Shown here: one piece after another, positions 4,931 through 26,343 of the stretch
How positions within the stretch are numbered: position 1 is the stretch's first letter
Layout: every line of letters begins with the position of its first letter
From: Dyella lutea
GTDB lineage: Bacteria > Pseudomonadota > Gammaproteobacteria > Xanthomonadales > Rhodanobacteraceae
Length of the DNA: 64,000 nt
Direction: 5' to 3'
NCBI RefSeq assembly: GCF_024158035.1
Contig: NZ_JAMZEK010000001.1
Span: 1,034,001-1,098,000 of the forward strand
Position numbers and translations under genes: made by a program
Notes under the pieces: generated by a model
Database searches by the model: none
The model's input: only the letters and a program-made list of their open reading frames with translations
What the model was told of the DNA's origin: nothing

Positions 4931-7900
4931 ATGCGGTACATCGTTTCGAAGAACGAGCAGGGGAGCCCCGTGAACGGGTCGGGTGCCAATCCATTCGATG
5001 TGGCCAGCGCCATTGCGCGGCAGTTGCGCGCGCGCAAAAGCACCCCGGTGCTGCGGGCGCAGGGCGTGGCAACCGATGGCGAAGCCCTCGAGCGGGCCAT
5101 CCGGTTGCGCGCGGCGCGCTTGCAGCAGCAGGGCGTGGTGGCCGGCGACGTGGTGGCCTGCGAGGCCGGCCATCGGGTCGACACCGTGGCATGGATGCTC
5201 GCCTGTCTGCGGCTCGGCGCGGTGTGGATGCCGCTGGACGCCGGCTACCCGCCTGTGCGCTTGGAGGCGATGCTGGCCGATGCCCGGCCCCGTGTACTGA
5301 TCGATCCATTGCAACGACTGCCGGCCCTGGATCTGCCGCCCGGGTTGCCGCAGATCGTCGATGACGACCATCCTGACGCGGACGCGGCCTTCGACTCGGC
5401 GGCCATGTCCGGGCTGGACTACGTGCTGTTCACCTCCGGCTCCAGCGGCCAGCCCAAGGGCGTGGCGATGCGCGGCGCGGTGATCGGGCACCTGATCGGC
5501 TGGCATGTTGCGCATCCGGCGCTGGGTCGCGCGGCGCGTACCCTGCAGTTCGCGCCGCTGACCTTCGATGTCTCGGTGCAGGAAATCCTCTCCACCCTCG
5601 CCACCGGTGGAGAGCTGGTGCTGCCGAGCGAGGACGAGCGCCGCGATCCCTACGCCCTGCTGTCGCGGCTGGTGGCCGATCGTGTCGAGCGGCTGTTCCT
5701 GCCCTACGTCGCGCTGCAGGCGCTGGCCGAGGCGGTGGCGGCCGGTGGCGAGCTGCCGGTGCATCTGCGCGATGTGGTCACCGCCGGCGAACAGCTGCGC
5801 GTGACGCCGGCGATCCGCGCGCTGTTCCGCCAGTTGTCGGGTGCGACGCTGCACAACCATTACGGCCCCACCGAGGCGCACGTGGTCACCGCGCTCACGC
5901 TGGACGGCGATCCGGCCGGCTGGCCGGAGCTACCGTCGATCGGCACGGCCCTGCCGCACGTGGCGCTGCGCGTGGCGGATGTGCAAGGCAAGCCCGTGCC
6001 CGATGGCGACGATGGCGAACTGCTGCTCGGCGGCGACTGCCTGGCGTCCGGCTATATCGGCCGGCCCGAGCTCACCGCCGAGCGCTTCGTCGAACGAACC
6101 GACGGACGCTGGTACCGCACCGGCGACCGTGCGCGCATCGAGCGCGACGGCAGCGTCACCTGGCTGGGCCGGCTGGACGACCAGGTGAAGATCGACGGCT
6201 ACCGCATCGAGCCGGCCGGCATTGAGGCGGTGCTGGCACGCCATCCCGCGGTGGCCGAGGTGGTGGTGGTGCCGACCGGCGAAATGGGGCGGCAGCGGCT
6301 GGTGGCGCATGTGGTGCCGCGCGATGCCATGGCGGATGAGTCGGCCCTGATCACCTCGTTGCGTCAGTACGCGGAAACCGAACTCGCCGCCTACCAGTTG
6401 CCGCAGGCCTGGGCGCTGCAGGCCGCGCTGCCGTTGACCGGCAGCGGCAAGATCGATCGCCGCGCCCTGGCCGCCGAAGGCACGCGGGCGCCACTGGCGT
6501 GGACGGACGATGCGCCGCTGGTCGAGCAACTCGCCGCCTTGTGGCAACAGCTGCTGGGTGTGGCTACGGTGCCGCACGACGCCAACGTGTTCGATCTCGG
6601 CGCGCGTTCGCTGACCGTGGTGCGCGCGCTCACTGAACTGCGCCGACGCGGTCATCGCACGCTGCGTGCAGTCGACCTCTACGAACACCCCACGGTGCAG
6701 GCGCTGGCCGCGCGGATCACGCAGGGGCACGCGGTGTCGCCTGCGCGAGCATCCACGGGCCGCCGCGCCCGGCCATCGGAAGGCGAGGCGGGCGTCGCCA
6801 TCGTCGGCATGGCCGGCCGCTTCCCTGCCGCAGACTCCATCGACGCCTTGTGGGAACTGCTGCTCGCCGGTCGCGAGGCGCTGAGCCGCTTCACGCCGGA
6901 ACAGGTCTCGCCGCTGGTGCCGGCTTCGCTGCGCGAACACCCGCGCTATGTGCCGGTGCGCGGCGTGATGGCCGATGCCGACCGCTTCGATGCGGCCTTC
7001 TTCGGTGTGCCGGCGCGCGAGGCGTTGCTGATGGACCCGCAGCAGCGGGTGTTCCTCGAGCTGTGCTGGAACGCGCTGGAAGATGCCGGCATCGATCCGG
7101 CACGCGCGGACGGTTCCGTCGGCGTCTACGCCGGTAGTTCGAACAACAGCTACCGCCGGCTGGTCGATGCGCGCGCCGACCTGGTACAGGCCGTCGGCGA
7201 ATTCGCTGCCATGCTGGCCAACGAGAAGGACTACCTCGCCACCCGCGTGGCGCATCGGCTCGATCTCACCGGGCCCGCACTGAACATCCAGACCGCGTGC
7301 TCCACCTCGCTGGTCGCGGTGGTGCAGGCCTGGCACGCCCTGATGAGCGGGCAGTGCGATGTTGCGCTGGCCGGCGGCGTGCACGTGCCGGCGCCGCAGG
7401 AGGCAGGCTACCTGCCGGTCGAGGGCGGCATGGAATCGGACGACGGCCATTGCCGCCCGTTCGATGCCGCTGCCAACGGCACGGTGTTCTCCGCCGGGGC
7501 CGGCGTGGTGGTGCTCAAGCGCGTGGCCGACGCGCTGGCCGCCGGCGATCGCATCGTCGCGGTGATCCGTGGCGTGGGCATCAACAACGACGGCGCCGAC
7601 AAGGCCAGCTTCACCGCGCCCAGCGTGCGCGGGCAGGCCGATGCCCTCGCGCAGGCGCTGGCCTGCGCTGGCGTGACGCCCGATACGGTGGGCTACATCG
7701 AGGCGCACGGTACGGCCACGCCGCTGGGTGATCCGATCGAAGTCGCAGCGCTCAATCGTGCCTACGCCGTCGACGGCACGATGCCGGACAGCTGCTGGCT
7801 GGGTTCGCTGAAAGGCAACCTCGGCCACCTCAACGCCGCCAGCGGCGTCGCTGGCCTGATCAAGGCGGCGCTGGCTTTGCAGCACGGCGAACTGCCACCG

Positions 7901-25186: not shown

Positions 25187-26343
25187 CGGTCGTGGCTATC
25201 GGCGTACTGGCGGTTCTGGTCGGCGGGTTGCTCGCCTTGGCGAAGTTGCTGCGCGGGCGCAACATGCACATCTGGCTGGGCGACTACCTGCGCCGCCGCG
25301 TGCCCAAGGTCGATGGGCCGGTGCACGTGATGTTCTGTTTCGTCGATCACTACGAACCGGCCTGGGGTAAGGTCGATCTCGCCACCCAGCGCGCCCGCGT
25401 CGACCGCTGGTGCACCGACTACCGCGCGATGGCCTCCAAACACCGCGATGCCGACGGTCGCCATCCGCAGCACAGTTTCTTCTACCCGGAAGAGGAATAC
25501 CTGCCCGAGCACCTGGACAAGCTGGCCGCGCTCTGCGCCGACGGCTTCGGCGAGATCGAGATCCACCTGCATCACGACAACGACACGCAGGAGAACTTCC
25601 GCCAGACCATCGCCGGCTTCTGCCGCACCCTGCGCGAGCGTCACGGCGCACTCAGTCGCGATCCGGCCACCGGTGAGCTCACCTTCGGCTTCATCCACGG
25701 CAACTGGAGCCTGGACAACTCGCGCGCCGACGGCCGCTGGTGCGGCCTCAACAACGAGCTGATCCTGCTGCGCGAACTGGGCTGCTACGCCGACTTCACC
25801 CTGCCGTCGGCGCCCAGCGACACGCAGACGCGCCTGAGCAATGCGATCTACTACGCGACCGACGATCCGCAGCGTCCCAAGTCGCACGACACCGGCGTGC
25901 CGGTGCGCGTGGGCGGCAAGCCCAGCGGCGACCTGATGATCGTGCAGGGGCCGCTGGGACTGAACTGGGCCGAGCGGCGCAAGGGCATCGTGCCGCGCAT
26001 CGAGAACGCCGACGTGCGCCGTGCCTGCCCGCCGACCCGTGCCCGCGTCGACCTGTGGGTGCGTACCGGCATCCACGTCGAGGGTCGGCCGGAGTGGGTG
26101 TTCATCAAGGTGCACACGCACGGCACCCAGGAGCGCGACATGGACACCCTGCTGGGCCAGGCCATGCATGACATGCACAGCTATCTCGAGAACGCCTACA
26201 ACGACGGCAAGCGGCACGTATTGCACTACGTGACCGCGCGCGAGGCCTACAACATCATCAAGGCGGCGGAGGCCGGCAAGTCAGGCGACCCGAACGACTG
26301 GCGCGACTTCATGCTGCCGCCGCCACCGCATCGCACCGCGTGA
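25183..26343 (+). CDS. Membrane-anchored polysaccharide-deacetylase-like protein of unknown function
   Basis: 386 residues. One N-terminal membrane helix (about 4-22) and then a hydrophilic domain with scattered features of the glycoside hydrolase/deacetylase barrel: C-F-V-D-H-Y-E-P near residue 53, H-L-H-H-D-N-D near 128, F-I-H-G-N-W-S-L-D-N near 170 and K-V-H-T-H-G near 310. The many His/Asp pairs suggest a metal site, but the canonical TFDDG is absent, so a standard NodB assignment is not safe. It closes the plus-strand operon by ATGA overlap and faces the minus-strand operon only twelve bases away. Likely a periplasmic-face or cytoplasmic-face glycan-modifying enzyme; identity is open. 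Confidence 0.65.
   Translation: MTVVAIGVLAVLVGGLLALAKLLRGRNMHIWLGDYLRRRVPKVDGPVHVMFCFVDHYEPAWGKVDLATQRARVDRWCTDYRAMASKHRDADGRHPQHSFFYPEEEYLPEHLDKLAALCADGFGEIEIHLHHDNDTQENFRQTIAGFCRTLRERHGALSRDPATGELTFGFIHGNWSLDNSRADGRWCGLNNELILLRELGCYADFTLPSAPSDTQTRLSNAIYYATDDPQRPKSHDTGVPVRVGGKPSGDLMIVQGPLGLNWAERRKGIVPRIENADVRRACPPTRARVDLWVRTGIHVEGRPEWVFIKVHTHGTQERDMDTLLGQAMHDMHSYLENAYNDGKRHVLHYVTAREAYNIIKAAEAGKSGDPNDWRDFMLPPPPHRTA

Follow-up and report, generated by a model that had tools for sequence, protein, structure and literature searches.

A hybrid NRPS-PKS synthase within an exopolysaccharide locus of Dyella lutea and its possible role in polymer decoration

The synthase and the locus around it

We analysed a 64,000-nt stretch of the Dyella lutea genome (GCF_024158035.1, C1:1034001-1098000; hereafter the window, with positions counted from its first letter), in which the gene for a hybrid non-ribosomal peptide synthetase-polyketide synthase (NRPS-PKS) runs directly into a set of exopolysaccharide (EPS) genes. 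The synthase has 3242 residues and the domain order A-PCP-KS-AT-ACP-AMT-C-A-PCP (A, adenylation; PCP, peptidyl carrier protein; KS, ketosynthase; AT, acyltransferase; ACP, acyl carrier protein; AMT, aminotransferase; C, condensation). Domain and family names given for the window are from Pfam and NCBIfam scans against the family cut-offs. In the synthase the Pfam families AMP-binding (two copies), PP-binding (three), ketoacyl-synthase, acyltransferase, class-III aminotransferase and condensation all score above their cut-offs, and with A, PCP, C, KS and AT domains all present the protein belongs to the hybrid NRPS-PKS class. It is the only condensation-domain protein that a search of the 4.4-Mb genome returned. 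Pfam detected no terminal thioesterase (TE) or release domain in the synthase, which ends in a 32-residue tail behind the last carrier. The gene and its domains are located as follows:

4931-14659, forward strand: hybrid NRPS-PKS, 3242 residues, without TE (Pfam)
6794-7912, forward strand: ketosynthase domain, residues 622-994 (Pfam)
8336-9184, forward strand: acyltransferase domain, residues 1136-1418, with HAFH motif (Pfam)
10184-11131, forward strand: class-III aminotransferase domain, residues 1752-2067 (Pfam)
11459-12778, forward strand: condensation domain, residues 2177-2616 (Pfam)
12854-13867, forward strand: second adenylation domain, residues 2642-2979, presumably Gly-like code (Pfam)
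14357-14659, forward strand: terminal carrier protein and short basic tail, without TE (Pfam and tail comparison)

The catalytic motifs can be read in the sequence: TACSTS in KS, GHSIGE together with HAFH in AT, YGKIIGGG in AMT, HHIVMDG in C, and the serines of all three carriers. We take the HAFH motif to indicate a malonyl-type AT. The AMT is an in-line class-III aminotransferase behind an ACP, as in mycosubtilin-like aminotransferase PKS-NRPS lines, and its region matches the structure of the mycosubtilin synthase AMT (6kfm) with 410 bits. The codes of the adenylation domains, at positions taken from a PheA ruler, are DVQFVAHVV for the first (A1) and DILQLGLIW for the second (A2). We take these codes to be Pro-like and Gly-like, respectively, and on that assumption they fit the proline and glycine building blocks proposed in the initial annotation of the locus. 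The terminal carriers of the window (14546-14659) and of its relatives have a short basic extension at their C-terminus, in many cases of the form L-x-x-L-F-G-R-R or similar, a possible docking peptide. In many relatives (L048, L065, L082 and others; L-numbers denote the DNA stretches or loci compared, G-numbers the genomes) the terminal A domain either is missing or has no P-loop, YGPTE and TGD motifs, yet the carrier behind it is conserved.

The TGA stop codon of the synthase gene (14657-14659) overlaps by 4 bp the ATG (14656) of a 375-residue GT2 glycosyltransferase gene, behind which nine further genes follow with mutual overlaps of 1-10 bp, at the starts chosen by the gene caller. The initial annotation had described both the stop-start overlap at 14656 and a gapless run behind the synthase, and both hold through 26343. 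Its names for the deacetylases, the flippase and the glycosyltransferases also stand; two other names were more weakly founded than implied. The ligase, a Wzy candidate (16874-18139), matches TfpM with 33 of 600 bits, far under the cut-off, and the product of the last gene, ending at 26343, matches no family in Pfam or NCBIfam. The Wzx flippase, a feature of Wzx/Wzy-dependent loci, is present at 52.6 versus 23 bits. Two Cupin_8 genes precede the synthase, and genes on the reverse strand adjoin the run at its far end:

2709-3695, forward strand: Cupin_8/JmjC-like protein, putative Fe/2-oxoglutarate hydroxylase (Pfam Cupin_8, 78 bits)
3695-4663, forward strand: second Cupin_8/JmjC-like protein (Pfam Cupin_8, 92.5 bits)
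14656-15783, forward strand: membrane GT2 glycosyltransferase (Pfam Glyco_tranf_2_3, 76 bits)
15777-16874, forward strand: polysaccharide deacetylase deac1 (Pfam Polysacc_deac_1)
16874-18139, forward strand: O-antigen ligase/polymerase-like membrane protein (weak TfpM match)
18136-19698, forward strand: Wzx-type flippase (Polysacc_synt_3)
19695-21083, forward strand: CapK/PaaK-like AMP-forming enzyme (NCBIfam DVU_1553/PaaK, under cut-off)
21080-22198, forward strand: GT4 glycosyltransferase (Pfam)
22195-23379, forward strand: GT4 glycosyltransferase (Pfam)
23376-24023, forward strand: NodB-type polysaccharide deacetylase deac2 (NCBIfam matches under cut-off)
24014-25186, forward strand: GT4 glycosyltransferase, XrtA stp3-like (Pfam; TIGR04063 141 bits, under cut-off)
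25183-26343, forward strand: conserved 386-residue protein, no Pfam or NCBIfam match
26356-27171, reverse strand: hyd1, alpha/beta hydrolase with Cys at the nucleophile elbow, TIGR03100-like (84.8 bits, cut-off 168)
27168-27920, reverse strand: hyd2, alpha/beta-hydrolase-like protein with Arg at the nucleophile elbow, TIGR03101-like (58.5 bits, cut-off 203)
27917-29230, reverse strand: EpsL-like outer membrane protein (TIGR03014, weak)
29386-30162, reverse strand: BY-kinase, similar to the XrtA-associated tyrosine autokinase (TIGR03018 172 bits, cut-off 231)
30159-31709, reverse strand: XrtA-type chain length determinant (TIGR03007)
31742-32362, reverse strand: Wza-type export protein (TIGR03027)

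Upstream (L002) are a TviB gene above cut-off, a TviC-like gene under cut-off, and a gene for an XrtA-type initiating transferase. Between the TviC-like gene and the transferase gene lies a phosphopantetheinyl transferase (PPTase) gene (Pfam ACPS above cut-off), one of two PPTase-family matches in the genome. The PPTase and the hyd1/hyd2 pair sit outside the interval originally noted, 4931-26343. Three proteins score above the cut-offs of XrtA-type families: chain-length determinant (TIGR03007, 390 versus 279 bits), export protein (TIGR03027, 204 versus 180) and initiating transferase (TIGR03013, 554 versus 393). A PF09721 search of the window genome, the one genome so searched, found no exosortase, and an exosortase system proper is rejected. 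Because the exosortase is missing and the hydrolase cut-offs are missed, the locus is a variant of the XrtA/PEP-CTERM-type EPS loci and not a member of them.

The 386-residue protein is 70-96% identical in related EPS loci with and without NRPS genes and, among the matches listed, ranks with the best-conserved proteins of the locus irrespective of NRPS; a plasmid search with it gave one match, in a planctomycete. At 65-2476 lies a gene for a protein of about 800 residues without a family match, 97% identical beside the Dyella ginsengisoli locus (L034) and, judged by eye, possibly a polysaccharide lyase.

Conservation of the arrangement in relatives

The family survey covered 147 Rhodanobacteraceae genomes, and its co-occurrence statistics ignore relatedness. 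A deac1 orthologue (E <= 1.5e-111; next best match 5.9e-42) is present in 49 of the 147, and 44 of these 49 contain a synthase (E <= 1e-100). The two lie within 16 kb of each other in 37/49 genomes, in agreement with the gene order that the initial annotation had proposed to seek in related genomes. In seven of the 44 (G058, G081, G085, G105, G109, G130 and G146) the synthase is remote or on another contig. In five genomes (G003, G038, G081, G092 and G105; loci L135, L148, L150, L151 and L145) the synthase is followed by the EPS core, or by the beginning of that core at a contig end, with no deac1 orthologue at the usual position. The closest match in a search of named records is Dyella ginsengisoli LA-4 (L054), whose deacetylase is 90% identical.

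The 80 named loci were classified in a 10-kb view. NRPS domains lie within this distance in 46 of them and in part in another. The remaining 33 comprise 20 with AsnB-type genes (some additionally with an ACP and an AMP-ligase), nine with a FemAB-like acyltransferase pair, one with both, and three that are too short. A GT2-like gene lies upstream of deac1 in 34/47 NRPS-type loci versus 0/33 of the others. For 29 of the 33 non-NRPS loci (all except L124, L126, L131 and L133) we searched the whole genome for synthase pieces; three of these, L061, L069 and L093, are deac1 copies without an EPS core beside them, in genomes that all have a synthase elsewhere, which leaves 26. No aminotransferase-condensation match was found anywhere in 19 of the 26, and the other seven have a match at E 1e-80 elsewhere, that in G539 being weak at 37% identity. 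The initial annotation had named absence of the megasynthase from most otherwise conserved copies of the locus as evidence that would count against it. Such absence was not seen, given NRPS domains in 47/80 loci, but where these are lacking it mostly extends to the entire genome. The 19 EPS-core genomes without a synthase piece indicate that the EPS does not require the synthase, which is an accessory to a backbone EPS locus able to exist alone.

The locus PPTase also follows the synthase: 26 of its 28 best family matches, its own gene included (E up to 4e-31; next match 1.8e-22), lie within 26 kb of an aminotransferase-NRPS, and the other two (G049 and G086) are on other contigs than the synthase. 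These findings bear on the alternative that the synthase was inserted by chance beside EPS genes and is hitch-hiking there. The EPS cores without a synthase would fit such an origin, but the 4-bp overlap, the same slot across genera, the locus PPTase and the hyd pair at the opposite end of the locus do not. We reject chance placement as highly improbable on the conserved order and the co-occurrence, given a distance of no more than 16 kb between synthase and deac1 in 37 of 49 genomes. At the level of genes the link between synthase and EPS locus in the family, through overlap, slot, PPTase and export genes, is firm, and the initial annotation's view of a single pathway is well supported by conserved order, overlap, PPTase and co-occurrence.

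In L127 four other genes adjoin the EPS core on the side that the synthase occupies elsewhere. They encode an ACP-like protein, an AMP-ligase, a protein similar to NAD synthase and an amidotransferase of asparagine-synthase type, a set that looks like a dissociated carrier-protein cassette. Pfam checks of names first given by eye returned NAD_synthase for the NadE-like protein and AMP-binding for the ligase in L127, and Acetyltransf_6 for the two FemAB-like proteins in L100; the L127 'GNAT' and ACP had no Pfam match, although NCBIfam gave weak carrier matches for the ACP. A strict swap of the AsnB/ACP/ligase cassette for the NRPS is rejected, as L143 carries both within 20 kb and 7/26 genomes have a match elsewhere. 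The CapK-like enzyme was set aside as an NRPS partner; it is present in non-NRPS loci too. The gene caller, tuned to the high GC content of the window, overlooked genes in loci of low GC content, for which raw open reading frames (ORFs) were used. L072, on a contig labelled Candidatus Eremiobacteraeota, has a locus with a deacetylase 60% identical to the window's, likely a binning error.

The loading module is the variable part of the synthase. In D. ginsengisoli it is a separate 625-residue A-PCP protein (L034, 5834-7711), 46% identical to that of the window and with the code DSRFMGEVF; the rest of the synthase is 74% identical, and the EPS proteins are at least 90% identical among the matches listed. 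Twelve loading domains stand before a KS: two with the Pro-like code, nine with a DA(L/F)W-type code, which we take to be Val-like, and one other. The module behind the aminotransferase has a DI(L/M)Q-type code in 73/78 rows, duplicates included, and the exceptions include DVWHISLVD, found twice. DILQLG forms are presumably Gly-like, and the DIMQVGGVY form we cannot assign. The starter thus changes while the core that follows is steadier. A close Cupin_8 pair was seen only in the window and in L158, both with a Pro-like loading code. Thirteen synthases start inside their stretch, and the 11 other than these two have only 0.1-5 kb in front (a single base in L142). L233 has a distant Cupin_8 ORF upstream of its synthase, on the opposite strand. 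Cupin_8 proteins are thus not supported as a general component, within the limits of these short upstream stretches.

The hyd1/hyd2 pair as candidate off-loader

The missing off-loading step is probably supplied by the hyd1/hyd2 pair (26356-27920), as suggested by co-occurrence with the synthase, adjacency, fusions at the TE position, and loss of hyd2 where the synthase has a thioesterase. In the 147 family genomes synthase and hyd2 occur together in 60, the synthase alone in six, hyd2 alone in five and neither in 76 (Fisher p 5e-28). All five deac1-orthologue genomes without a synthase (G004, G026, G030, G098 and G120) lack hyd2, so that hyd2 tracks the synthase rather than the EPS core. Of the six genomes with a synthase alone, four (G028, G036, G040 and G113) have distant synthases of 37-38% identity. 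The other two, G024 and G127, lack hyd2, and their synthases have a Pfam Thioesterase in a 286-residue tail. Tails of this length are found in these two of 70 synthase ends, the other 68 having 40 residues or fewer; in L134 and L158 the stretch stops before the synthase does, and some of the 70 belong to inner subunits of a line.

In 11 of 28 family stretches (L136, L137, L138, L139, L140, L141, L143, L149, L152, L153 and L160) hyd2 and then hyd1 follow directly behind the synthase, in six with a 4-bp overlap; genera other than that of the window are among them. Using a profile built from the family rows, we also found six ORFs in five genomes (L224, L225, L226, L229, L231 and L232) in which an in-frame fusion joins hyd2 to the final carrier, at the position of a TE. 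Pfam run on five of the six detected the carrier in all five and a hydrolase domain above cut-off in L226 and L231 and under it in L224 and L225; in L229 it detected none. Among 30 hyd1 loci fetched, A-domain sequence ends beside hyd2 in nine (L195, L196, L198-L203 and L220) and an ACP-like sequence lies beside it in four (L207, L217, L218 and L221). L229, L231 and L232 have a minimal form of the system: a stand-alone aminotransferase-like ORF, an A-PCP-hyd2 fusion and hyd1, the stretch having no PKS domains that were recognised. Proteins that contain GINT1_N, a domain named for glucosamine inositolphosphorylceramide transferase 1, adjoin synthase-hyd2-hyd1 sets in L136 (3470-5230), L141 (6516-8132) and L138 (14038-16656).

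The elbow of hyd1 reads G-L-C-x-(G/A) or nearly so. Its Cys114 is present in 44/44 family rows and in 28 of 29 distinct class rows, with one gap, and His248 in 44/44 family rows and in every class row aligned at that position. The hyd2 elbow has Arg114 in 43/43 family rows and 31/31 distinct class rows. The class counts are of distinct rows, with duplicates removed. The L234 proteins exceed the TIGR03100 and TIGR03101 cut-offs and have the same elbow Cys and Arg, which extends the rule to at least one canonical exosortase-associated pair. Models of the window's hyd1 and hyd2, of middling quality (five-row alignments) and used for fold only, both have the alpha/beta-hydrolase fold, with mean predicted local distance difference test (pLDDT) scores of 74.2 and 75.6.

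A synthase, a PPTase of its own and a likely two-part off-loader inside an EPS locus suggest that the peptide is attached to the polymer. We put the probability at about 0.5 that the locus is a Wzx-dependent EPS locus of XrtA/PEP-CTERM type with a built-in NRPS-PKS making a short basic peptide for polymer decoration. Several observations weigh against this assignment. Apart from the EPS cores without a synthase and the coexistence of both cassettes in L143, these are that hyd1 and hyd2 score under their family cut-offs, that 17 of the 30 hyd1 loci, the window's included, have no A-domain or ACP match in their short flanks, and that no proven glycan N-acyltransferase is found among the locus genes. 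Outside the family, where neighbouring genes were assigned by similarity to chosen queries and not by family scans, eight of 13 stretches (L223, L224, L225, L226, L228, L231, L233 and L235) have the hyd pair without a polysaccharide-query match around it, although an NRPS adjoins the pair in seven of the eight; polysaccharide matches are present in the other five (L227, L229, L230, L232 and L234). L233 has an ABC-transporter-like gene behind hyd1, which fits a free product. In L223 a hyd2-hyd1 pair lies in 14 kb with no NRPS or ACP match, and the pair can thus exist without an adjoining carrier gene.

These extra-family stretches bear on the possibility that hyd1/hyd2 release a free small molecule, co-regulated with the EPS but not bound to it, which acts in the biofilm as a matrix factor, metal ligand or signal. 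Pairs mostly with an NRPS but without recognised polysaccharide neighbours, the transporter-like gene of L233 and the ordinary TE in two relatives (G024 and G127) all fit such a product. Mutanofactins, reported as polyketide/nonribosomal compounds linked to biofilm in S. mutans (PMC11782227), offer a precedent. Against a free product, the Pfam and NCBIfam scans recognised no small-molecule exporter among the proteins encoded at 2709-26343, and the synthase slot ahead of GT2/deac1 is constant in many genomes. In a survey of 369 gammaproteobacterial genomes an XrtA-type chain-length protein (E <= 1e-60) was found in 35 of the 39 with hyd1 versus 81 of the 330 without. It is also present in seven of the nine extra-family genomes with the strongest hyd1 matches, eight of which have an NRPS beside the pair (p 0.0015 versus 81/330). 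We regard a free product as a serious alternative, though less likely than decoration of the polymer.

Proposed pathway and relation to known systems

If the synthase does supply a peptide for the polymer, A1 would load proline, KS-AT-ACP would extend the prolyl unit by malonate, the aminotransferase would convert the beta-ketone to an amine, giving a vicinal diamine, and C-A2-PCP would add glycine. The predicted product is a 3-amino-3-(pyrrolidin-2-yl)propanoyl-glycyl thioester, which the Cupin_8 proteins might hydroxylate. Together, hyd2, with an Arg elbow and no nucleophile, and hyd1, as the Cys enzyme, would take the acyl group off the terminal carrier and pass it to a glycan amine, most likely one freed by a deacetylase, ahead of export by Wzx. 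In this scheme, whose substrates, hyd1/hyd2 reaction and acceptor we infer from the genes, hyd1 would be the acyl-enzyme partner, hyd2 a nucleophile-less TE-like module holding the carrier or the acceptor, and the peptide would become covalently attached to the glycan or its carrier.

The peptide might instead go to another acceptor: transiently an undecaprenyl-linked intermediate, or a lipid, lipopolysaccharide or a surface protein. The stand-alone ACP-like genes beside hyd1/hyd2 in L207, L217, L218 and L221 are compatible with this, but two polysaccharide deacetylases in the same operon could free amines on the glycan itself, and we consider other acceptors improbable. Returning to decoration of the EPS, we tentatively propose, at less than even odds, a more extended scheme. 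A heteromer of hyd1 (Cys) and hyd2 (a pseudo-enzyme in TE position with an Arg elbow) would move the vicinal-diamine peptide made by the NRPS-PKS from the terminal carrier to deacetylated amino sugars. The same pair would unload stand-alone ACPs in ordinary XrtA-type EPS loci, so that carrier-fed N-acylation of EPS would be widespread, and swaps of the loading A domain among close relatives would vary the surface.

The window locus resembles XrtA/PEP-CTERM EPS loci in its chain-length, export and initiating-transferase proteins above the cut-offs and in its hydrolase 1/2 pair, and its relative L127 adds an ACP-like protein, an AMP-ligase near TIGR03098 and an AsnB near TIGR03108, both under the cut-offs. 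It differs in that it has no exosortase, that hyd1 and hyd2 fall under cut-off and that a complete NRPS-PKS provides the carrier function. An internal class-III aminotransferase is also known from synthases of the mycosubtilin/iturin and microcystin types, with which the order KS-AT-ACP-AMT-C-A-PCP is shared; the AMT region matches 6kfm from mycosubtilin synthase. Here, however, the starter is an amino acid (by its code) rather than a fatty or aryl acid, there is no TE, and the setting is an EPS locus with hyd1/hyd2.

Two systems offer parallels on the side of the polymer. In the Dlt pathway for D-alanylation of teichoic acids, adenylation and a carrier protein supply an acyl group to a cell-surface polymer. 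The outline of carrier-fed acylation proposed here is alike, whereas the donor would be a multi-module NRPS-PKS and the transfer would involve an alpha/beta hydrolase with an elbow Cys, paired with an Arg-elbow protein; general scans of the locus proteins gave no match to DltB or DltD, and no search aimed at these was made. The sheath polysaccharides of Sphaerotilus and Leptothrix bear peptide, with Cys/Gly-type residues. They share with our proposal a peptide on an amino-sugar polymer, but the genes described here point to a Pro-diamine-Gly acyl group. We know of no such exopolysaccharide decorated by an NRPS-PKS peptide. In searches of an open-access library, with most subscription journals outside its scope, no title or abstract opening among those listed tied an NRPS to this type of EPS locus, and the portion of the main text of Haft 2006 (PMC1569441) available to us does not mention hydrolase, ligase, acyl carrier or nonribosomal.

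If decoration of the polymer is confirmed, modular peptide/polyketide lines would gain a further destination in the covalent decoration of a surface polymer, and the 'exosortase A-associated hydrolase 1/2' pair would gain a testable role in carrier-protein off-loading, one member having the Cys and the other the Arg elbow. Decoration would likewise explain the aminotransferase-NRPS clusters seen in Dyella, Luteibacter and Rhodanobacter.

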